From Nautilus pompilius (Eukaryota; Mollusca; Cephalopoda; Nautilida; Nautilidae), in NCBI GenBank assembly GCA_018389105.1, contig JACATO010002451.1, positions 3,054,501 to 3,118,500 on the forward strand: a DNA stretch of 64,000 nt, written 5' to 3'. Below the pieces are notes generated by a model. It saw only the letters and a program-made list of their open reading frames with translations. It was not told where the DNA came from and did not search any database. Positions 25,829 to 51,107 of the stretch are shown here, one piece after another. The position numbers were made by a program, and so were the translations under genes. The first letter of the stretch is position 1. Each line of letters starts with the position of its first letter.

Positions 25829-28800
25829 CTGTAAAGTAATAATGAGATTATCAATAGTTCGTTTAAAAAGGACATATTTCTAGAAAAGTGTAAAGAAGAA
25901 ACGTTTGCAGCTTTGTCTGAAGCCAGAACGAGCCTCATTGTGTAGTAACTTGCGCTCCATAGAAATCTACTTAGTGTGAGATTTTCTGCTGTTTTGTGGA
26001 TGCTGAATATATACTTGGGTACGTGGGTTATTACAATGTTAGATACTGTTAATATATAGTAGGTTCATCAGTCTAAAAAAGATGTGAACTTAAGTGGCCA
26101 TAAAGCTAGATATTTAAAAATTAAAATATTTTAATAAAGTCCAGGTGTTCAGAAACACTAATTTGTTTTGTTCTGAGGGAGCTATTGAACCGTAAGTAAG
26201 ATCCAGCATTGAAACATACCTATGCTATTAATCTATTTGTTCTGAAGCACCCGTAATGTCTACCTGATCTGGAGCTACAGAACCAGGGATTACACTAATA
26301 ATTTTAAGACAGTATACATAAAAATAATTTTTAACAGCAATGAACCTATAATAATAGCTCATTTTTTGTAAGGAACCAAATGTACCTGGACTTACAATGA
26401 TAAGTTTTGAACAGTAAGATACCTCTGGGATCAAGGTTTTTAATAGCATTGAAAAGGCCATCATTTAAAAAATTCCGAAACCTTTTAACACAGGGAGGGT
26501 GTCTTTTGCTAGAAAAGTGTTTATTTGATCCATAACTTGTTTTTTTTTATGTGGCGAATTTATTTTTGAAGTTAAGGATTCTGAATAATTACCAACATAC
26601 GATTTTATTACTTCTGTTGCAGTCTGACATTAACTGCTTCAGATAAGATGTCAAAGGGTCAGCATTTTTATAGTTAATGTTTTCATTATGCCGCCCAGTC
26701 CAAGCAGAATTATGTCCTGTTTCGATTGTCATTTATTGACATACCTGTTGTAAATGCTGTCTGTAGAAATGTGCTGACCAATTTAAATACACAAAGGTGA
26801 CCAATACCGTTGTAGACGACACCAGACTGATGAGAAAGAAGAGAGGGAAAATCCTGCTTTGTAACCGACCAAACATGATCCTCGGTAATGTGTAATACAT
26901 GAGCAAGCCTAAAAACAAAATAAAAATGGCTTCCTTAATTACATATGTTTATTTTAATTTATTATCCAGTCAGTCTCACAAAATAGTAACACAACGCATT
27001 TATAATTCTTCTGACTGCTCTATGTGATTGGTCTCTATAATATGTAGAATTACTCATGAAGAAGAACCATGCATAAACGGATAATAAACATCTGTTTGTG
27101 GTTCATGGTATTATGTTTCATTATTTTGCTATAATTGACTGGTTGGCCCTGTAATGCACCAAATCTAACAGTAGGTGGAAAATTAGGAAATCCTCTGAGT
27201 TATCCTTACTTCTGTCTATAAGGTAATTGCATGAGAGCAACATGTATGGATACTAGCAGGCATAAAAAGAAAAAAACAACAAAGAATGTGTACTTATCTA
27301 CCCACTTTGCTTAATGAGAGATTTATTACTAAGAATTTTTTTTAAAACCAGATGTCCGGCATGACAGAAGTTTTCATCATAAGCATAACTTTTCAGATTT
27401 GGGACTGACAAAATATTTCGTTGGTTTATTTAGTAACAGAGGGTAATTAACCAGCTAACAAAAGTTATTATAAAATGGAGTATGGTGACATCAAATAATT
27501 ACGAATAATGATCGAAAGACTAATCGGTATGTTTCAAGCCCATTTCATTTAAAAGGCTATAAATTTATGGAAAAATTTTGATTGAGAGAAATAAATATTC
27601 ATATTAACCCTTGTGGACAACATATTTTGTGATAATGAAGATCAACTGGTTGCCTTTAAGTCTTCATCACTATTAAGCTGATTTGTAAAACTTAGTTTTT
27701 GAAAGTCAGCTCATTTATTGGAGTAGAGTAGTCAAACAGAAATTCCTAAAAAGATAAAACTGAATACAATAGATTTTGGAGACATTTATGAATAAATCTA
27801 AGTATATACAGATGTAGACATGCTATAAAATACCGGCTGAAATTTAATTTTGATTTTCACTGTCTTTCTGTGGTTCTCTATGCAGCAACGCAGTCACTGT
27901 AGATACATTTCATCACTGAAAGCTCTTAGCAAACATTCTTTATGCACCTTTTACTGAATTGTTTTGATCTCGGACATTTAGCTGGGATTTCTCGTCCCAT
28001 CTCTCGCTGGCTTTCAGCTTCTCGTTGAAAGCTGAAAGAAGAAATTTCTGAAGCCGTGGGAGCATTGACGCGTCTATGAAAGCCATGGATTTACCAATTC
28101 TTCAGTAAGGGCACGCATGAATATTGAATATTCACCTTGTGGATTTCTTGCCTGATGCCCAGTCAGGATTTTTTTATAATCCATACAAGTGATGATACCT
28201 AGCAACATCAAAAAGATTGGGAAAAATTTTCAGTTTGTATGTGTAAGAAAACCAAATTATCCAAAGCATTAACACAATTCTTTGTTTCGTCGTAACATTC
28301 GAGGATCGCTGATTTGTCATCATTTTCAGAAATGTCGTCTCTTTCATGATGCAGGCCCAACAATAGGTATACAGATATTCATACCTTCAGAACGTAGGAG
28401 ACAAACGTATAATTTTTCTGAAAATCAAAAATAGAGTTGTAGAGGTTCCGGTGTCCGCTGGACAGAAATCTATTTGGTATAAATGACTTATTATATCGAA
28501 TAGTACCGACCATTTCCAAGTCATTTTCATGAAGAGTTACTAGTAAATCTGTGAAGTAATTGTCACAAGAGTCATATTCCATTTATTGTCATTGCGTGGC
28601 TGTCAATTGCAGAACTTTCTGCCGTATCAAGCCGTATTATACATGTTTTGCGTCTTTGCCTGTCTATGGCTTAAAGAAGGTAGAATGTTTTTTCGCATCG
28701 TGTATCGAGAATATCTTTATTCCATCTTTTTCTGGCTTGGAAGACATTTTCTAAGAGGACATCGTCGGCGGTAAGGAATTGGTTGTTCATCGATTGCTAG

Positions 28801-30849
28801 GTACTCATTGAGGACTGTAGTGACGCAGAAGAAGTGGTTAAGTTCTTCAAAGACCTCCAAAATGGTGCACTTCTGCACCTTTCAGCACGTCTTTGTCATC
28901 AAAGCGAACAAAAGGCATGCTAGAACCTAAAGGCGACGAAGATCCATAGTTGCTCTAAAAGTAAGTAATCTATACTTTCGATTCCATATAGATTGGTAAC
29001 TGAAATGGTTGGCTTTCAAATGTTCGTCTGCAAGAAGCAATCCAATAAAGACTTATCTAAACAAAATCAGTTATATTTCATGGTTTGACTATATTCTTCT
29101 AGGCTTACATTCTTACAGCTTCTTAGTGTTCGCCACATTGAGCTGGATGGTTTTGTCGTTGATGAAAAAGTCATAAGCTTATAGTGGTTGACTCTTGAAT
29201 GCGCACAACACCAAGACATATTATATTGTGCTGTTTTTGATTTGGATGTAGACAGTGGATTCTTCTTTCAGACTGTCCTATTCCTTCAAATGTAGGAGTC
29301 TGGACCATTTCTTCTTCATAGTCACTGCCTTCAGCATCTGAAGCTTCTGACTACTTTGTCAACGTCTTCTGAATCAGCCTCTTCGGACAAGAAAGCATAT
29401 TCATCGTTTGTGTCATCGTCATCGTCTATATATTTGAGTTATTTCAGCAAAACATGAAACACGTTTCGTTGAGCCATGTTGAGGTTCTCCTCAAACATCT
29501 TATATATAACCTATTCTAGAAGTTTTCAGAAAATTTTATATAAGAACATTCAAGAGTAAGAATATCATAGTATGAGAAGAAAGTTATGGATTATTCTAAG
29601 CATTTTTCGCAAGAATACTTAGAATATTCTGATCTGTTTAAACATGTTCTGGAATATTGTGGAAGGTTCCAGTACATTTTATGACATTGTTAGATACTCC
29701 ACGAAATTAAGTCTGTATGACCACTTTATGGAATATTCTAGAATATCGCGGAATTATATTCAGGATACTTATACTAGGAGGGTGTCGTAAAAAGAAGTAA
29801 GAAGAATAAGTTGTTGTTCAGTTCTCATGCTAGATATCACTACAGCAAGCCTTTCATTCTTAAAGAAAACACATGAGAGCAAAGAATACGGGTCATATGA
29901 GGACAAGATTATACAATTGAAAATTGCCTACTGTATATGACAGACCGAAGTTGTCCACTTAAGGGTTAGAAACTTTTTTGTTTGTTTCCTCTTCTCAGTC
30001 AACCGCGACAAACTCAGTGAAAGGAAACTTGAGAGACTTTTGCTACTCTTGATGACCAATCACATTTTTATTTTGGAGAGTTGAGGGATCATTAATGAAG
30101 TTCTCATAGTGGAAAGTATTTACTATTTTTTGGTTCATTTTATTATTTTTTTGCTACCCTAGAAGCACCACTCATGAGCTTCAGCTCGACTCAGAGATAG
30201 GAAACCAAAAGGGGCAGTTAGAACTCGCTGCTGGTAACAGCAGCAGCTAACGCGGCGGATTCGCCAGTTCTACACACGAAATATTAATTCTCAAATGAAA
30301 CTGCTGTTAAATTTTCCTTGAAAGCGAAACATTTAAAAGTTTTTCGCATTATTTATTTATTGTTACTTGCTCAACATTTCTTGAAGATGGCAAGAAGTTT
30401 CTCTTATTTGATTCTTTTCATTGATACGCATCTAATGAAAGGAGGCATTGTTCAAAATAGTGCAATCTAGACCAGTTTTCTTAAAAAAATTGATGATGAC
30501 GTAATAAGAATATATGCAGGTGTATAATTCTTTTAATTTATTAAAATTGTGTGGACTAGTTTAACTGTCCGCGACTGTTAGCTCCACTGATAATTCTCTC
30601 CGTCTACGGGTTAAATTACCAAGCTCCCTGCCATTAGAAGTGCATCTTCCTTGGCTGCACAGAAGGTAGATGAAAGAGTGAATGTTGAAAAGGTGGCTTA
30701 CCTGATACAAATGTAACCCACAGCTGAGATCCGAAATGAAATGCAAAGCTGGCAAGATGCACAAACTTCACGGTACTGCAAAATATTTCGTGCCTAGAGT
30801 CTAGATACAAGAAACATCCAAATGTGACTAGAACTGCAACAGCAGCCAT
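25529..30849 (-). CDS. TMEM205: TMEM205-like membrane protein, three exons, complete
   Basis: Exons on the minus strand are 30849-30702, 26908-26745 and 25828-25529. Joined in phase they give 203 residues; human TMEM205 has 189. The protein is a small multi-pass membrane protein of the DUF4149 type. Family motifs visible are KFVHLASFAFHFGSQLWVTF with VSG (exon 1), MFGRLQSRIFPLFF (exon 2), and MERKFQLERQGG, then NPEFARIQNLFRQCHCLCSL in the family's conserved xxLRxxFxxxHGxSSL region (exon 3). Four hydrophobic segments can be seen: near the N-terminus, in exon 2, at the exon 2/3 junction (LLVLLLNVLLAMAG) and at the C-terminus. The human protein has been linked to cisplatin resistance and vesicle traffic; its molecular activity is unclear. 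Intron 1 (3.8 kb) holds a piggyBac relic. Confidence 0.85.
26745..26908 (-). CDS. TMEM205: TMEM205-like exon 2
   Basis: The acceptor is TTGTTTTTAG and the donor CAG|GTATGT. It encodes LLMYYTLPRIMFGRLQSRIF and the second membrane span, ending HLQQ in phase 0. Confidence 0.88.
27608..29965 (-). mobile_element. piggyBac relic with both terminal repeats and TTAA-like flanks
   Basis: The left end is TTAA (27604-27607) followed by CCCTTGTGGACAAC. The right end, read on the minus strand, is CTAA then CCCTTAAGTGGACAAC (29965-29950). So the 14-16 bp inverted repeats differ by a 2-base indel, and one TTAA flank has a single change. The length of 2358 bp is normal for an autonomous piggyBac. Minus-strand coding remnants run in order: an ATG at 29477 (MAQRNVF), an acidic N-terminus (YIDDDDDTNDEYAF), then ECDSCDNYFTDLL-like and VGTIRYNKSFIP with SIFDFQKNYTFVSYV (about 28580-28380), then HQARNPQGEYSIF near 28150. 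A Cys-rich tail, CPRSKQ with CIKNVC and MKC, is at about 27975-27885. Many stops and frameshifts show it is dead. It sits in TMEM205 intron 1. Confidence 0.88.
29500..29745 (-). promoter_or_regulatory. Heat-shock-element array and TATA word upstream of the piggyBac transposase
   Basis: Alternating GAA/TTC pentamers with 2-base spacing occur five times upstream of the transposase ATG (29477). Positions are 29731-29743 (GAA-TTC-GAA, perfect), 29647-29669 (TTC-GAA-TTG-GAA-TTC, five units, four perfect), 29622-29629 (GAA-TTC), 29544-29556 (GAA-TTC-GAG) and 29514-29531 (TTC-GAA-TTT-GAA). A TATA word (TTATATATAA on the minus strand, about 29501-29510) follows on the promoter-proximal side. The spacing rule is that of binding sites for heat-shock factor trimers. 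Confidence 0.7.
30702..30849 (-). CDS. TMEM205: TMEM205-like exon 1
   Basis: ATG at 30849 opens MAAVAVLVTFGCFLYLD, followed by STVKFVHLASFAFHF and LWVTFVS, and ends one base into a Gly codon. The donor is TCAG|GTAAGC. An AG with a short pyrimidine stretch just upstream could be the acceptor of a noncoding exon, so the start exon may be the second exon. Confidence 0.8.
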
Positions 30850-31234: not shown

Positions 31235-31772
31235 CTCCTCACGCGTTCAGTAGGGTTTACATCTAGGGACTGAAAGGGGATAAGCCATGTCCCTTTTAAA
31301 CAAGGTACTGCCTGTTCGGCTTTGCGGCGTGCTCCAGGTGATCGTCTCTTTGCAGTACAAACCCATCAACTATCAAGCGATGTTTTGATAGAATTGCATG
31401 ACATGCAGCGGAATATTGTGGTGCCTCCTTCTCTTGTGAGAATCCCAATCGTTTTATCGAGGAAGCAGCCAAACCACCCATCGTGCTTAGTGGTAGGGCG
31501 AGCTTTTTTCTAACATAGCTTAAAAACCAAATCCTTCGAAGCTGTTCGCGCCTGACCACAACACATCACGCCTCGGCGCACTTCTGATACCGATGGACAC
31601 AAGGACATTCCGCTTTCAGTATGAACTAAATCTAGCATGCGAAAAGCTTCGTGACAACAGCTAATGGTTTACGGGTTCCGATACGCGGTTTATCGAGTTT
31701 TTCATTCTGCTTCTCTTTTGCTGGGTAAATAACAACGCTTTCGGTCAGTAGGTTTATAATTTTGAACGCCAT
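31235..31772 (-). mobile_element. Degenerate Tc1-family transposase
   Basis: Read on the minus strand from about 31772, the pieces are NLLTESVVIYPAKEKQNEKL and DKPRIGTRKPLAVVTKLFAC. Then, after frame changes, comes KHRLIVDGFVLQRDDHLEHA (about 31390-31330), which sits where Tc1 proteins have RFILQQDNDPKHT. A GHGLSPFSP region near 31265 follows, where SPDLNPIE is expected. The second catalytic Asp region is altered and several stops are present, so the copy is inactive. Confidence 0.7.
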
Positions 31773-36649: not shown

Positions 36650-38145
36650 ACATAATGTGTGGAAGAACTCCGACAAGGTAAGAAAAAGTCTTTCCGTTTT
36701 GGGATCCCTATGATCTGGAGGGAACCTCGACATCACAGTGATGACTGTTACTTTTGTTCGTGTAACTTACAGGGGTTCAATCTAAAAAATAAGAAAGAAA
36801 TTTTCTATCCGAACCTCTCGTCAGCAATACGCCCTGTACCTCATGGCCCAGGTATACCAGTACCTTTACCTCCAGAAAAACTAGAGGACACGCCTGAAGA
36901 CTGAAAAAGAAGGCCAAGATTCTGATGAGGACTTTCACGATGTTTCAGGCAGCAGCGAGCCCCAACTTTTTTCACAGCTTGAATTGAATGACTTAGTCAG
37001 AAACTTGGATCTTCCTAAAGATGCAGCAGAACTGTTAGGCTCTAGGTTATAGGAAAAGAACTTGTTGTCCCCTGGTACCTCTTTCTCAAGGTTTAGAAAT
37101 AGAGAAAAATATTTCATTCCCTTTTCTAATGAAGGTGACCTGGTTTATTGTAGCGATGTCCTTGGACTGATGGAGATACAGTATGACGTGAATGAGTGGG
37201 AGCTCTTTATTGACTCATCAAAAAGAAGCCTCAAAGCAGTGCTTCTCCACAATGGCAGCAAGTACGCTTCAGTACCAGTAGGGCATTCTGTGTATCTGAA
37301 AGAATGCCACGAGAATTTAACCTTAATTCTCACCGAACTGAAATACAAGGATCATGGATGGACTGCGGCGATCTGAAAGTAATTTCCATGCTTCTTGGAC
37401 AGCAGGGAGGATACACCAAGTACCCCTGCTTCTTGTGTGAATGGGACAGCCGGGATAGGGGCCAACACTGGATCAAAAAGGAGTGGCCGTGTAGGGTAGA
37501 ATTAGAACCTGGAAGCAAAAATGTAGTACGGGAAAGTTTAGTTGATCCAATTTAAGTCCTCTTGCCTCCACTTCATATCAAGCCTGGACCAATGAAACCA
37601 TTTGTAAAGGCTCTGTCAAAAGAAGGAGAGTGTTTTAAATACCGGCGCAACAAGTTTCTGGAACTGTCAGAAGCAAAAGTGAAAGGTGTTTTCGTCCTTC
37701 CAGATATTCGGAAACTTCTGAAAGATGATCATGATGTGTTTGAAACAAAAATGGAAACAGTTGAAAAAGAGGTCTGGAAAACTTTCAAAGAAGTTGTACA
37801 GAAATTTCTTGGGAACTATAAGGATCCCAACTTTAAGTGTATTGTGGAAAACATGCTGATGAAATTCAAAGACTTGGGTTGTTCGATGAGCTTGAAGGTG
37901 CACTTCCTGAATTCTCATTTATACTTCCCCGAAAATCTTGGTGCTGTTAGTGAAGAGTAGGGGGAAATATTTCATCAAGATATCAAGGAGATGGAACGCA
38001 GATACCAGAGTAGGTGGAACGTCGACATGATTGTGGATTCTTGTTGGATGCTGCACAGAGAAGAGCCGCAAGCTGCCTACAAGAGAAAAAGTACCAAAAG
38101 GAGCTTTGAGGGAAAACGGAAAAGGCAGTATGGGGACTTGTAAAG
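36650..38145 (+). pseudogene. Broken copy of a multi-copy zinc-finger-like ORF family, probably mobile
   Basis: A long, mostly open plus-strand frame can be followed through several breaks: a frameshift near 36903, a TAG near 37050, frameshifts near 37320-37370, a TAA near 37553 and a TAG near 37958. Recognisable pieces are MIWREPRHHSDDCYFCSCN, YPNLSSAIRPVPHGPGIPVP, then IQYDVNEWELFIDSSKRSLK, YTKYPCFLCEWDSRDRGQHW, HIKPGPMKPFVKAL, and near the end YQSRWNVDMIVDSCWMLHRE with KRKSTKRSFEGKRKRQ. I have a memory of similar repeated uncharacterised proteins in arthropods and cnidarians. I do not know the transposon class or function. CxxC pairs in CYFC and CFLC suggest zinc binding. Confidence 0.6.
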
Positions 38146-41659: not shown

Positions 41660-43793
41660 CGTTTTAATGTAACAACGATAGCGCTGTTCCCTACCTGGAA
41701 ATAAACAACAACAGGACGGACTTCTTGTGTTCAGTAGGGTAAATGGCCGCGTAGACTGGGCCCCTCAAGGCCCGGACAAAAAAAAAAAAAAAAAAACCCT
41801 ACCGACAGTATTATCATTTCTGAAACGGGGTTTGTTTTTATTTTATTATTATTATCCCTGTTCGGCTTTGTGTCCTGGAAAAGGAAAGGTCCACGCTTAA
41901 ATATTTGCAAAATATCCCGAAGTTTCTTCCTCAGAAAAGTCTCTCTGAGGACGACCGCTTAGCTCAAAGAAAAACAGAAACAAGACTGCGCAGCTGAGAG
42001 CAGGCCAGGCCAGCTGGATCCCGTCCCCGTCCCTCGGTTACTTCTGTTCGGTGATGATGCCCGCCACGACCCTTTTCTTGCATACTTGTAATATCGAAAT
42101 GGGACGTATGGGGGTATCCAAGGCCGTTTCTGTGTTTTAAATGTGCTAGCGCAGGAAACTACCATAAACAACTCTATGTAGAGTCCCCTCTGTGGCAGGA
42201 GGGGTGTAGGCACGCAAATACTCTTATTATTGTTGTTGTTGTTATTATTATTGTTAACCATTCCTGTTCTTCAACTGTACTTATGTAATTTTTAAAAAAA
42301 CTCAGCTGATATACGTAAATTATATATTTGTTATTAAAGCCCAACATTACTATGGACCGAATTCGTTTCTACCCGCCTCACCAGCCAACCTACATACTTT
42401 ACTATATTCAGGAGTGGCGGCGGTTCCTTCAGTGAGAATTAAAATAAATAAAACTAAAGTTATAATTTGCCTTGGTTCCACAAATATATTAACGTCACCG
42501 ACCACCACAAGGAGCGAATATTAACATAATGAGCAGTCTTTCCGACATTAATAATGCTTTATTAAAATGTTTAATTCAAATTTCCAGTCAGTCAGTAAAT
42601 AAATCAGGCCTTTCGTTCTGTATGTATGAGATAAAATGTCTGCCAAAAACGAGAGACTGTAGTATTAGTGTTATAATCAGGTAGTGGAATGTCTGTCAAA
42701 GGTGAACAAGAACAAAGCCCTTTCCATTGAGGTCCAATAAAAAGGGAAAACTGGTTTTAAAACAAAGTAGCTTTTACCAAAAAAGAAAAAAAGTCTCTAA
42801 TCTCAGATTTAGAAAAGTATGTCAGGCAGATACCACTGAAGAACCTCTTCCTCATATCTGTGTGCAGATGATTCTTATTCTTATACTCACGACCCTTTGA
42901 TGTATGATGTGCCAAAGGTGTGAAAACAAAGTTTCTTTTAAAACTTCAATATTGCTCTTGAGAAAACATCTGTAGACCCAGGTGAGCAAAAGAAGCCACT
43001 TTAATCTTTCTTGAAATTACATGTATTACTGATTGTTCTCTAAACCTTTGAGATGCTCGCTCAGATATCTTCCTGTAATGTGGGGAACAAAAAACAACAT
43101 AACCATTTTCACACAGGCTAAGTATTGTATTTTTCTGCAATCATTAGTGTCTACAACTGGCGACACAGGTTGCATAGTACTATGATTACTATTAACAAGT
43201 GTTGCCATTCCTTGTCACTACTATCAAATCTCTGGGAGAGAGCCCACACCAATGGACTGACACAGAAAATTGGGAAAAAATCACAAGTAAGCCATTTGCC
43301 TGCCAAACTCATATTTGGTGACACGACAAGAAAACTGCTATTAAAAACTGATAAAACTTTAATCAGAAACTTTTTGGGGGGGTTAATGGAGTTTCAAAAA
43401 AACAAATTGTTTTATCACTTAAAATTAGCTAAAGAAAGAGTATATTTGAATCTCAGTTGATGCATGGAGATGTCAATGCACTATAGCTTCCTATAACTTT
43501 TTAAAGCAGAATTAAAAAATTAAAGAGCAGGTTCTGTCAGCTTTATGAACTACTTCCATTACTCGTTATGCTTCCATCACCACTGCTTATATTCTGTAAT
43601 GATTATGAAAACTCCAGTGCATAAAAAGAAAAAAACAGAAAACCTCCAGTGGCTGCTGTCTGTATGACTTTATTAGATAAGGTGTGTAGATTTAGTAAAA
43701 GGGTTATATTTCTTTTTCATTTTATCCAAGACCTTAACTTTCAGAATAACAGTTAAGGCTTAGGTTGTAATAATCTTTATTTTTAAATTTCAG
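41660..43793 (+). other. Presumed first intron of CREBL2
   Basis: AT-rich beyond 41800, with an A-run at 41780 and ATT repeats near 42220-42255. Two frames of 60-110 codons around 42946-43460 show no family resemblance. No exon recognised. Confidence 0.5.
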
Positions 43794-43997
43794 AAGATGT
43801 CTGGTGAGCGGCCAGTGAAACGAGCTGGTCGTCGAGGACGAAAGCCATCCAAAATTGACACAAAAGCTCGGCTGGAACGGAGCAGACAGAGTGCCCGAGA
43901 ATGTCGGGCAAGGAAAAAGCTGAGATATCAGTACCTGGAAGAACTGGTTGTCCTTCGGGAGCGATCTATATTGTCTTTGAGAGGAGAACTGGAGAAG
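43794..43997 (+). CDS. CREBL2: CREBL2 bZIP exon
   Basis: The acceptor is TTTTTAAATTTCAG and the donor GAGAAG|GTAAAC. The ATG is the second codon-sized triplet of the exon (43797). The start MSGERPVKRAGRRGRKPSKI corresponds to the human N-terminus, so translation from this ATG is plausible, although an upstream exon could add residues. Confidence 0.92.
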
Positions 43998-46900
43998 GTA
44001 AACACATTTATTCTATTTATTCCTCAATTATTTAATAATTTGACAGCAACTCTGAATGATAGAAGCACAACTGTGTTTTGGAATAAAAATTAAGTTAGAA
44101 TGACTCCCTTTTTCAACAAATTAAATATCTAAATAAATTCATTAAAACAACTTCAGATTCATGCAGTAAAGTCCACAAAAATATTAGTATATTAGACCAA
44201 AAGATAATGAAACAGGAGTGTAAATATTATGTGATTGGAACTCCTGAGCCTGCTAGTCAAATGATGTGACATAAAAAAATGAAGATGTTCAGTAATTTAC
44301 TCAGCTATGACTAAATTTTGAGTGTGGAATTATGGGACTTTTTCCATAATAAGCAATGAGTTGCAGAGTTGTCAACTCTTGTATCAGAGTAGTAAGAACC
44401 AGGGTTCTTGGGTTACAAATCATGGTCAGTTGGCTTCAGGGTAAAGCCCTGGTGAAATGCCAAAGTGGGCAGAGAAGGGAAATGATTTCTGATATTTTTG
44501 ACACTAATGTTACATGTTTTTACTGTTTATTTGCTAGTATTCAGAAACATCTTCACAAACCATACTAAAATAAAAGGAATAAAATAAAATAGAGCAAACA
44601 TTATGCAAATGACAAACAGCATTTGTTTTATGGATATCAAGAAACAACAAACCATGTTAAGTTAGAATATCAAATTTTCACTTCTTGTGGAATCTATTAT
44701 GTTTTCTTGATGAGTAGATTCAGACTTGGCCATTTTAATGATAAGGAGAGACATCGTCATGCCATTCATTGGCCGGCTGTACCTGTTCAGTCTTGTTCTC
44801 TCCTAACCATATTAAACACACTTTTCACTAGCATTGGAATGAGGGGTTACTAGGACAAGTTTTGCTCTCTGAAGGTTCTTCAAACCTGTCAGATCACCAC
44901 ATGATGATGGCTGTCATCTAAGGGTTGAATTTGTAAAAAGAGGAGCATGCTGCTATGGAGAGATTTCACCTTCAAGAGTTCAAAGGGTGCTAGTTTATCT
45001 TTTGTTAGTCATCCAACAAACAGGTTCTCATCTGGCAAATGATTCTCTATTGACTAAAAATTAACATCTGTAGCTACTGGGTGACCTTTGGCCTCCACTT
45101 TGACAAACTTTTCAACAACTTTCTCAGAATTTAATTAATTTGAAAATAAACAGAAAAAATTGCAGAGATCTTTGCATTGAAGAAATATGTTGAAAGTGGG
45201 GAACTCAGGTGGTACTGATTGGTAAAACATAAGGTACACTTCAGTCATGAGGTTTTAAAAAAATGAATTTGAATCTCTTGAGTATTGGATGGCCCTTGCC
45301 AGCAGTTTTTGACTAACTTTTGCTGACATCAAATAATTCCAAGTTTATGACATTGTTCTTACAAGGCTGATCCATTTTCACCACCTATTCATAACCAACT
45401 ACACAAAAGGCATTAAAGGCAGTTTATCTCCATGTAGATTTGTCAAACGAGTAGAACGTATTTATGCAGAAGTCTTCTACATCAGAATTTGCTATTGGAA
45501 GGAATCTGAAGCTTTGCAAGTCAATTTGTTCATAAGATGACAAGATTAAAGTAGCATAGTTCAACTTATTGCACCATTCATTTTTGAATTTCTCTTGCCA
45601 AAATTAGCACTAGTGTCATACAAAGTTTTTCTATTGATTTACAAATGCACAAAAAAATAGTTAATTTTTGAAAATTTTGATACTTCATAGATTACCATGT
45701 TGTTGTTTTTTTGCAGTTTTGTTTTCTTTTTGACTGGAGAGCTTTGGCATTGCAAATGTGTTCAAGAGGTATTCCAAATTGAAATTTTACTGAAAAATAT
45801 ATAATGGAGTAAATTAAACTAGTTTATTTACAGACTTGACTTTAAGAGAAAGGTGAAAGAAGAGTTAGAATCTTTTGACTTTTAATGAAACTTGGAATGT
45901 GTTTCTGAGAGTTTCTAATTAAAATCACAGATTTTGTCTAAAATGCCAACTTAATCTTTGTAGTTGGACAAGATGGAAGAATAAACAGGTGTATACTACA
46001 GTGTTACAGCTAGGTTTTCAAACGGGCATGGTAAATATTATAAAACAGGGCACATTGCGTGCAGTCACGGTGCGGAAGCATGGTATTGTGGGCACATTTA
46101 TTTGCATTAATGACAAGACAAATTTGATAAATAACAGTTTAATACTAGTATGATGTAGGTGTTAAGTGAAGTATTACTAACTTATGCAATCATACAAACC
46201 TACAAGTTCACATTTATTTGCAACAAAGTCAATGCACGTATATATACATTTACAAGTTCTCATAATATAATGAAATGCAATAGCTTTAATTGACGACCTT
46301 GAATTAGGCTAGATTGTATGTTAAAACGTTGAAGAAAAATACTCTTAAGACTGCCGCTCTTTTGTTAGGTCTTTTGTGTACTCGTGCTATGCTTCGAAGC
46401 GTAAACTAAATGGCATATAATGCGCACGCGCACAAGTTACAACTCCGCAGAGCGGCTGGAAAATTCCCGCCAGGGGACGCTCAAAAAGTTCTGCATGCGG
46501 CGGTTGTATACCTGTACAAAAAGGAAAATCGGGCTTTGTGTTTTGCACCATTTGGGGCATGGCATTGTAAATTTAGGGCATGTCATTGTACAAAGAGGCA
46601 TGGCGTGGCGCCATGCTAAAAAGGGCTAGCTGGAACTCTGTACTATATCTTTCAGGAATATTATTTATCAGGTGTACTTTTAAGCTTATTTCTAACAATT
46701 GGAAATGGAGGTGCTTGGTGTGAATCTGCTTTTCATCTATGATTTCTGTGATGGCAAATGGTGAACCGTGATAAGATAAATCAGAGTTTGGCTACAGGTG
46801 AACTGCATTGGAAAAGAAGCTATAGAACTTCCAATGGTAATTCAGTTTGTCAAAAACAGATAATCTTTTATACCAGTTGTCTTTTCTTTAATTCTATTAA

Positions 46901-49900
46901 ACAAAATACATTAAAAAATGTCCAAGTATTAAAAATATTGACCACAGATGATGTTTAAAGGATCCTTTAAAATGGTTCTTTAGGAGTATACCTGTGTGCA
47001 TCTTTTTTATTTATGCAAAATGTGAAAATGAGCTAGTAATTAGTAATTAAGACATGACTGAAGCTTTGTGGTTGGAATTTTTTGTATGAAAGGAAGGATG
47101 GGTGAGAAATGGATTTTAACTAACTTGAATTCTTCTAAGAAAGTTGAGAGGAATGATAGTTAAATATTTTTGGAAGAAAAAAAGGCATCAACCAAAAATT
47201 ACTGTCAGATCTTATTTAATTTCTGTATTTGCATGTTAACAAGTGTACCAGGGACTCACGTTCAAATGAAATCTGGCTGGAATAGCATTGCTATCCATAA
47301 TATTATTTGGCTCCTGATTTTACTTGGACATTTGTCCCTAGTATTAAATGCATAATGAGTTTCACACTGGTGCAGTAAGTTAGGTGGATGAGGAAAGGTA
47401 ATAGTAGAATCCGCTTTATTTGAGACAAAAAGATAGGTTTTAGGCTAGATTTGTTATATTTGGTGAGGACTTTTAGATTCAAGTACAATTTACCTATTCT
47501 ACCCTGAGTTCTCTATCAGACCTGTTGAACTAATGATAGTTTAGAGAGATTTATCATTATTCTCATGACTAGATGCAAAATAATTTTCAAACTCAGATTA
47601 CCTCCCACAAATGCTACATAAGAAAGCTTATTTTCCAACATTATATATATATATGATTTGTCTTGTCCTGATGTTAAGTAAATCTTTTATAATAATAATA
47701 AAGCAGGTTTTTTTCCACATCTATCTAAAAGTATGTCACCACTAAAATTGAAAGTAAGTAGAAAAAATAGTAAATAATTAGAAATTATGTTACTAATATG
47801 GATTGATATTTGATTTGATGTTGACTAAAAAATTTTTGCTTTTAAAAAAACCAATTATATTGTGCTTAATTTTAATAACAATTTTTAAAAAGAAAATAAA
47901 TTTTATAAGGGAGATAAACTATTTTCAGACACTTAAACGATTAAGTTATCTCCCTTACACAAGGGAATTTAGAGTAGGCATTGAACTGAACAACTTTCCT
48001 CAAGACTATAAACTTAAAAAAAAAATCAAATGTAAATGAGATTAGAGTGACTGAGTTGTGATTTGTATCTAAGGAAATGCTTAGGTGTCATTCTTTAAAA
48101 TGCATGGGCTGTTTGTTCAACACTTTTTTTTTATTGTTTCTCTGCACAATTTCAATAATTATGATTTGTCAGACCTATACCAGTTTTTTTTTTTTTTTAA
48201 AAGAATGCACTTGCATACAAATGTAGTGACTGGTTTGAGTTCTTCTGACTTCATTATTGTCATCTCAAAAATCTGAATGTAAACAAATTTTTCAAGCTTT
48301 AGCTATTATGTGATATAGGTATACTATTTCTTGCTGTAGGATGAGTTATTATACCGTAAAGTTTTGAAATTTTATGGCTATAAGCTGGCAGTGGATGAAA
48401 TGATATTTTCTTTGCATTAGGAGTAAGCAAACTATTTTTGATGATCTTTGTTTCACTCAGTGTATTACAACATTTTACAGTAATATGATATGTAGAATCA
48501 GCATTCATTAATTTCAGATTTGATATAATGTATTGTATAAATGAATAAATTCAGTAATTTTCAGAAAACAAAATAATTAAAACAGATAGAGAAAATGTAT
48601 TGGTAATATAAAAATTTCATTTTTAATCAGATCTAGAACATTTTGCTATTTGTAGACATGCCCATCCTTATAATTTTTTAAACCATAGGATATAATCAAG
48701 AATTAGTATGTGCATCACCAGATTTTAGTCTAGTTTAAAAACTGAATGTGCAACTTTGGGCAAGCCGAAATCACAAATTGCTATGAAGTTTAGTTTTGAA
48801 TTTGATGATGCATACTAGTGCCTACAGCATACTTAAGTCTATCAACCTTAAAAATGTAATTTCTTTCATTTTACAATCATAAATTTCAAAATATTACAAA
48901 TATGAACTAAATGTATAGCAAAAATATTTTCCATAATTTGTTAGATCCAATAAAAGCTGCCTAATAGCTTTCTTGACTTGGTTATCTTTGTTTAAATTGG
49001 CATAACTGCCAAACTGTCTTGATTTGATGATAACCACTGCATATGTGCCTGACATCACATTTTGCTTTAGAAACTATTACTTCAGACACAAAATATTATT
49101 TACATATAAACTGTATTTTTGTTGTTGTTGTTGTTGTTATAGCAAATTTATTAGTACACAGCAACTACTCTAGGTAAATATTACATTTGTAACTATTATT
49201 TATGTAAAACAATCTTAACATGGATTTTGCATCTTTTTAGAAATAAAGCAATTTCTTTCAACAAACTACAGTTTAAGGATTTACTTTAATTTTGATGCAT
49301 ACTTTTCTTGGAACTGCTTGGACTGTTTACCAAATGTCAGGGCTCAACATTAAATCTAATGTTTGAAAAGAAAAAAAAAATTTAAAAAAACCTAGCAGCT
49401 TAGCAGGGAGGAAGATTATATAAAGCTGATGACTTCAAAGTTTCATCTTGGAAGTAAAAAAAAAAAAAAGCTTGTACAAACAAACTAATTTTGAAATAAT
49501 GTTGTGGATTGTTATGCCATACTAACACTGACAAGTAGTGGGAAGTCAGCTTAGGCTTCAGGATATCAAACTGGATTGAAAACTAGAAGATAAACCACAC
49601 TATCTACAGTTCAAGCCAAACTTAATTTGTCAAAAAATTCCATTAGAAGAAAGGTGAAGTGAAGCGGTTAAGTGTTTTACATTTTAGAAGTTTAAATTGC
49701 CAGTATGTGAGGATTTTCACAAAACATTTGTTGAAATTTTCATAAGTAGTATTCATAGTTTTGCAGTTGTGGCAATTGTGATGTTATCTGTGAGCCTTGG
49801 TTTAGAAATAGTAATAATAAATGAAAACAATGGTAACTTCTTTTTCTTCACAAACTCTCAAATGTGTACTGGTCTTGTTTCTTAAATTTTAACCTGTAGA

Positions 49901-51107
49901 ATCTTCGAGAAGAAAAAAGAAAGATTTCCCTCTTTATACTTCACCTGCTTAACATTGGCTATACTAATGACAATCTGCACTGAAGATGTCATCATTGTCT
50001 TGACAACACTGAAGTTTTGTAATGATTTAATATTCTGAGCTAACAGAGAAAAGAAAGTACAAAATAATAGAGTCAAGATTTGGTTTTCCTTGTCAGTGTT
50101 ACTGAACCAAGTTGGTGACTGAGAACAGATTGAATATATGTAGGTAGTTTAGACAAATTTTTTTTTACTAGTTATTAAAATGAAACAGGGATAAGAAAAA
50201 CATTATTAAATTGATTCACATATCATCAGCAGCATGCATGAAATTTTTTTTTTGGCATGGTGTAAACAATTCTATGAAGTCTCTTTATAAGGAGTGAATT
50301 TTAAAAAAAACAAACAAACAAAACTGATATCTTCATATTCAAAAGCTGGTAAACATCTAAAAGATTGAACTTTGTACTATATCAATAAAAATGAAGTATT
50401 CTCTTTTAAAAAATCTTCCTGCAATTTGATGGTCTAGGCTATTAACAGAGTATGAGGGTTTCTCAAGTAATTCAGTTCCAGGAGTTTTGGAAACATTTTT
50501 TCATAACATTAAGTTTTTTTCCACCCTTTTGTAGATGAAAAGCTACTGCATACAAATGGATGGTGGCTGTTTACCAGCAGGTTTGTTGGATAATTTGTCT
50601 GGTGAACGAGCTTTGTTTGCAAAGAAGCCTATTAGCTCTGGAAATGATTCAGGTTCTCAGGCGGACAGGCATTATAAGCAGACTAAAGGGAACATGTTAT
50701 CACAGAATCTTCATGAACGAGGGTATGCACAAAAACCAGGTGTTAATTCCACAGGTAACTTTTATGCCATTGAAAATCAAAATGGTTCTAAACTTTTTGT
50801 GGAATTGAGCAACGACAATGTAGTCAATGAACTGGATGAACTAATAATGGAAACAGAAATGAAGCAAAACAGTCATTTGCATCCGGAATCATCCACAGTA
50901 AAGATGGCTTTATTGGGAGACAACCATGAAGATGATAGCAATGGGTCTGGAATTCAACGGACAGAAATTTCACATGTGGCATCTTCCAGCAGAGACATGT
51001 TTAAGTATGAAGGGTCATCATCTCAGAATAATTCCAAAGACACGCATCTCAATCTCCCAGTTTTTGCAGATTTACTGGATAGCATGGATGACGATAGTGA
51101 CGATTAA
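43797..51107 (+). CDS. CREBL2: CREBL2-like bZIP factor, long form (257 residues)
   Basis: Two coding exons, 43797-43997 and 50535-51107, join in phase 0. The first carries RRGRKPSKID, the basic region LERSRQSARECRARKKLRYQ, and the start of the zipper (YLEELVVLRERSILSLRGEL). These match vertebrate CREBL2, an atypical bZIP that cooperates with CREB in metabolic gene control. The second opens MKSYCIQMDGGCLPAGLLDN followed by LSGE. This aligns without gaps to the vertebrate segment after the zipper, sharing K, C, M, D, G, P, L, G and E positions. The remaining 165 or so residues are Ser/Asn/Asp-rich with an acidic C-terminus (DLLDSMDDDSDD) and have no counterpart in the 120-residue human protein. 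As in other CREBL2 proteins, the basic region has Ser where most bZIPs have the invariant Asn. Confidence 0.88.

Follow-up and report, generated by a model that had tools for sequence, protein, structure and literature searches.

A clustered, non-random array of heat-shock-element words at the putative promoter of a decayed piggyBac element

A TMEM205-like gene has in its first coding intron the remnant of a piggyBac transposon, which carries, beside the start of the transposase, an array of heat-shock-element (HSE) words; this array is real and non-random. We interpret the block as probably representing what is left of the transposase promoter, in which at least four multi-unit HSEs would have been placed around a TATA word and driven by the host heat-shock factor (HSF). 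The analysis covers one stretch of 64,000 nucleotides of Nautilus pompilius DNA (the window), and all positions are given in window coordinates.

A piggyBac remnant within a TMEM205-like gene

The host gene and the element comprise the following features.
30702..30849, minus strand: first coding exon of the TMEM205-like host gene, from its ATG, with donor GTAAGC after it
26745..26908, minus strand: second coding exon of the same gene, with acceptor TTTTTAG before it and donor GTATGT after it (splice sites placed by eye)
27608..29965, minus strand: piggyBac element remnant, 2358 bp, with the transposase reading on the minus strand (delimited from ends, flanks and transposase pieces)
27608..27621, plus strand: left terminal inverted repeat, CCCTTGTGGACAAC, matching the right end except for a 2-base AA
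29950..29965, minus strand: right terminal inverted repeat, CCCTTAAGTGGACAAC
28379..28582, minus strand: transposase piece with CDNYFT, aligned to the chain stretch CDNWFT (PDB 6x67, residues 344-407)

The element sits in the first coding intron, on the same strand as the gene, of which exon 1 ends at 30702. When joined and translated, the host exons match DUF4149 in Pfam (E 5.5e-19). The first-pass annotation had placed the insertion in a TMEM205 intron, and the position between these two exons bears this out; the name TMEM205 for a DUF4149 gene follows the annotation and the usual naming of that family.

Short terminal inverted repeats starting with CCC, a trait of the piggyBac superfamily, are present at both ends, which can be written as CCCTT(AA)GTGGACAAC. 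The left end reads TTAA-CCCTTGTGGACAAC at 27604-27621 and the right end, as read in the window, GTTGTCCACTTAAGGG-TTAG at 29950-29969. The flanks are therefore TTAA (27604-27607) on the left and TTAG (29966-29969) on the right, the latter apparently a decayed TTAA, consistent with one later change.

The identification as piggyBac made in the first-pass annotation is upheld by the transposase piece at 28379-28582, which matches the solved transposase chain 6x67 with a whole-sequence E of 3.6e-4 (0.0042 for the stretch alone). The chain in 6x67 and 6x68 is the Trichoplusia ni piggyBac transposase. A second piece, read in a different frame, has a weak match to residues 261-287 of 6x67 (E 0.34), over IDEQ; this match lies earlier in the chain, in the correct order, and an unrelated growth factor ranks above it (E 0.27). 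The search of solved structures returned no piggyBac match for a third piece, and no piggyBac model was matched in the Pfam search of the transposase pieces. The element thus appears to belong to the piggyBac superfamily by virtue of a piggyBac-type transposase, an assignment carried by one good piece. This copy is dead: its reading frame is frameshifted and interrupted by numerous stops, and the two pieces that match the transposase are not in the same frame.

Comparison of the element with the rest of the window by blastn gave two 20-base matches only (E 0.43), which we do not count as further copies. A scan of the window for the terminal repeat found, besides the right end, one site with 3 mismatches, where 3.3 matches are expected by chance. 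No relatives of the element were found in a phage collection; in a collection of viral contigs, 13 pattern matches were obtained, none of which was confirmed, and a second search of it found none. A collection of genome contigs yielded a single 14-residue match in a Prevotella MAG, taken as chance.

Elsewhere in the window, the ORF at 43764-44093 (plus strand) encodes a bZIP domain (Pfam, E 9.9e-6) and resembles CREBL2; like the TMEM205-like gene, it points to an animal genome. The stop-to-stop ORF at 37556-37960 (plus strand, 134 aa) has sub-threshold Pfam matches only. An 87-aa ORF at 31296-31559 (minus strand) looked mariner-like by eye and was set aside, being unsupported in Pfam and among solved structures.

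The array consists of multi-unit HSE words

HSEs are defined by the alternation and the spacing of GAA and TTC. A motif scan of the 64-kb window found alternating GAA/TTC pentamers with 2-base gaps (a 5-base period) clustered at 29514-29753, as follows (all without strand).
29514..29531: HSE cluster 1, TTC GAA TTT GAA, 11/12 letters
29544..29556: HSE cluster 2, GAA TTC GAG, 8/9 letters
29647..29669: HSE cluster 3, TTC GAA TTG GAA TTC, 14/15 letters
29731..29753: HSE cluster 4, GAA TTC GAA TCG GAA, 13/15 letters, the first three units (29731-29743) being perfect
29579..29629: weak HSE-like stretches, at 29579-29596 (10/12 letters) and 29622-29629 (two perfect units)

A unit with 2 of 3 letters at 29726-29728 is in register with cluster 4. 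The perfect site at 29731-29743 reads GAAnnTTCTAGAA, the consensus for animal HSF. The first-pass annotation had counted five clusters within about 230 bp; the clustering stands, but the count becomes four clear clusters and two weak stretches. The five-unit array it described at 29647-29669 is present, with one mismatch.

Because the spacer bases between the words differ (TA, GT, CA, GG, TG, AA, CG), the arrays are more than plain reiterations of a single 10-bp unit. A tandem repeat of one unit was likewise discarded: Tandem Repeats Finder gives none within the array, the nearest row (29787-29810) lying outside it. The true binder might be a transcription factor other than HSF that recognizes a related word, such as the TEAD-type GGAAT, since TGGAATATT occurs at both 29650-29658 and 29729-29737. 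We give this very little credence, as factors of this kind do not need four to five units in strict 5-base alternation.

The array exceeds chance expectation

We counted three-unit positions at a threshold of at least 8/9 letters and four-unit positions at a threshold of at least 11/12, with overlapping positions counted alike in all controls. The whole window (34.7% G+C) contains 44 three-unit positions, 9 of which fall in the block 29480-29800, where they form four clusters within 250 bp. All four of the four-unit positions in the window lie in this block, in three clusters.

We made 20000 dinucleotide shuffles of the 321-bp segment. They averaged 0.16 three-unit positions and never exceeded 5, where the segment has nine; for four-unit positions they never exceeded 2, where the segment has four. 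The best five-unit score of the segment was equalled by 1 of 20000 segment shuffles. The perfect three-unit site, pointed out in the first-pass annotation, is indeed perfect but unremarkable when taken singly: the window has three, and because 135 of 20000 segment shuffles contain one, such a site is not evidence by itself. The other two perfect words of the window, at 49899-49911 and 50705-50717, are unremarkable at the background rate.

Since the region had been picked from the window, we also compared the densest 250 bp window-wide, which allows for that choice. The densest 250 bp of the window holds 9 three-unit positions, against a maximum of 6 both in 1000 shuffled windows and in 1000 windows from an order-4 Markov model trained on the real window. 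For four-unit positions, the real window has 4 in 250 bp; the Markov windows had no more than 3, a number that 4 of the 1000 attained. Once the block is masked, 35 three-unit positions remain, compared to 28.7 (SD 5.8) in shuffled whole windows, and the HSE background of the window is therefore near chance.

The signal is specific in both period and word. Among periods 3-12 in the segment, only period 5 gives four-unit arrays with at least 11/12 letters; period 6 gives one four-unit array at 10/12 letters and two three-unit matches. Among 32 trinucleotide/reverse-complement pairs at period 5, only GAA/TTC gives four-unit arrays (at least 11/12) in the segment. A summed-occupancy score was less discriminating, with 250-bp stretches near 49.7 kb reaching 15.6 as against 16.0 at the HSE block; this score can be dominated by one perfect site. 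Chance in AT-rich DNA, which the first-pass annotation had called unlikely and had proposed to check by scanning shuffled sequence, is excluded as the origin of the array by the segment shuffles, the window shuffles and the order-4 Markov model.

A possible internal duplication

The stretch 29512-29626 aligns with 29655-29767 with a score of 48, which was reached by 0 of 2000 shuffled pairs (again 0 of 2000 under a second scoring), and two of the three direct-repeat pairs found have a common offset of 142-143 bp. The promoter region may thus contain a decayed internal duplication, possibly linking the clusters; if real, it would make them fewer independent events than they appear. The same alignment and shared offset would also fit a copy-specific accident, in which internal duplication multiplied an AT-rich palindromic stretch and left functionless HSE look-alikes. 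With the HSE words masked, however, the duplication score is attained in 323 of 5000 masked shuffles. Most of the likeness therefore comes from the HSE words themselves and the case for a duplication is weak; a duplication also leaves the 5-base periodicity inside each unit unexplained. We regard such an accident as very doubtful.

Setting aside 14 gap columns, the two copies agree in 30 of 43 columns within HSE words and in 46 of 64 columns in the rest. Agreement is no higher inside the HSE words than outside them, which gives no sign of selection on the words since the duplication, and we accordingly do not claim a present function for them.

The array lies at the putative transposase promoter

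Two kinds of landmark define the putative promoter.
29475..29498, minus strand: candidate transposase start codons, ATG 29496-29498 and in-frame ATG 29475-29477
29532..29543, minus strand: TATA-like word, TTATATAAAATT, a likely core promoter

The frame reaches a stop 12 codons past the second ATG (29475-29477), and a second TATA-like word, at 29499-29509, adjoins the ATG. Supposing that the TATA word at 29532-29543 was used, transcription would start near 29513. The expected start is then preceded by clear clusters 2-4, at distances of about 30 to 240 bp. Cluster 1 (29514-29531) is located between the likely TATA word and the start/ATG rather than upstream of both. Having one HSE cluster downstream of the likely TATA word would be unusual, and we count it against a promoter. 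The first-pass annotation had described a TATA word between the array and the ATG; the word is present at 29532-29543, but cluster 1 lies between it and the ATG. The block is located within 27608-29965, in agreement with the earlier placement of the array inside the element's own ends and by the transposase start. HSEs of at least three units are therefore present beyond chance at what the TATA word and the start codon suggest to be the promoter of the element.

Nine strong three-unit scores fall in 29480-29760, one in the coding part, and none in either 27606-27900 or 29760-29971. The earlier statement that HSEs occur only on the promoter side is thus nearly right, the far end having none and the coding part one. 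This distribution bears on whether the GAA/TTC arrays served, rather than as a promoter switch, as subterminal sites bound by the transposase itself or by a host protein used in transposition. piggyBac elements require subterminal sequence in addition to their short terminal repeats, and such regions often contain repeats; the arrays also lie no more than 460 bp from one end. Yet there are no strong sites at the other end (27606-27900), and the spacing is exactly HSE-like with variable spacer letters. The presence of HSE sites on the transcription-start side and their absence from the other end favors a promoter over end-binding sites, and we hold the latter to be unlikely.

The element or an ancestor of its family might instead have taken over its promoter from a heat-shock gene of the host, making the array host-derived. 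A TATA word together with several multi-unit HSEs in 250 bp is reminiscent of hsp70-type promoters. The block is, however, enclosed by the ends of the element and adjoins the start of the transposase, and promoter capture seems a rather improbable origin.

Discussion

On the reading that we prefer, that of an HSF-driven transposase promoter, the ancestral promoter would have carried multi-unit HSEs over roughly the 240 bp that precede the start expected from the TATA word. In the intact ancestor, trimers of host HSF would bind the GAA/TTC pentamers during heat or protein stress; this binding would raise transcription of the transposase, and transposition would thereby be coupled to stress. We infer HSF binding, heat induction and the family-wide, rather than copy-only, presence of the block from one dead copy. 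More tentatively, the array may have been a heat switch at the level of the family, either evolved or captured, such that heat stress was followed by bursts of the family, whose copies brought ready-made HSEs into introns and promoters of the host.

Transposons switched on by heat have been described in a few groups. A search of the open-access literature, by titles and abstract openings, found no HSE-driven piggyBac among the matches listed. If the heat-switch reading is true, piggyBac, a widespread superfamily and a transgenesis vector, would join the transposons that answer to stress, and would offer a testable case of transposons distributing heat-responsive sites. This reading also makes a simple prediction for younger copies in the same genome.

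The element resembles Trichoplusia ni piggyBac (6x67/6x68) in that its transposase pieces align and its ends start with CCC beside TTAA; it differs in being too decayed for placement in a subfamily. ONSEN is an LTR element with HSEs. This Arabidopsis retrotransposon is activated by heat stress (PMC8376061), and differs from the remnant in being a plant retrotransposon for which activation is shown. In Cryptococcus, LTR retrotransposons contain putative HSEs in the LTR, one in TCN12 and two in TCN3, which have been proposed as the reason for greater mobility at 37 C (PMC12810828). These share with the piggyBac remnant putative HSEs within the element itself, whereas they are fungal LTR elements with fewer sites and with measured mobility. 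Finally, Helitrons of Caenorhabditis carry HSEs that are bound by HSF-1, and both nearby genes and the Helitrons' own transposase mRNA are upregulated on heat shock (PMC6927752). Their HSE-like motifs run on as tandem overlapping sites (PMC6927752), and the group repeats in a subsequent survey that Helitrons of Caenorhabditis carry HSEs bound by HSF-1 (PMC8896005). The Helitrons are rolling-circle elements with binding and expression shown, in contrast to the cut-and-paste piggyBac described here, which is one decayed copy known from sequence alone; what the two have in common is a DNA transposon bearing HSEs.
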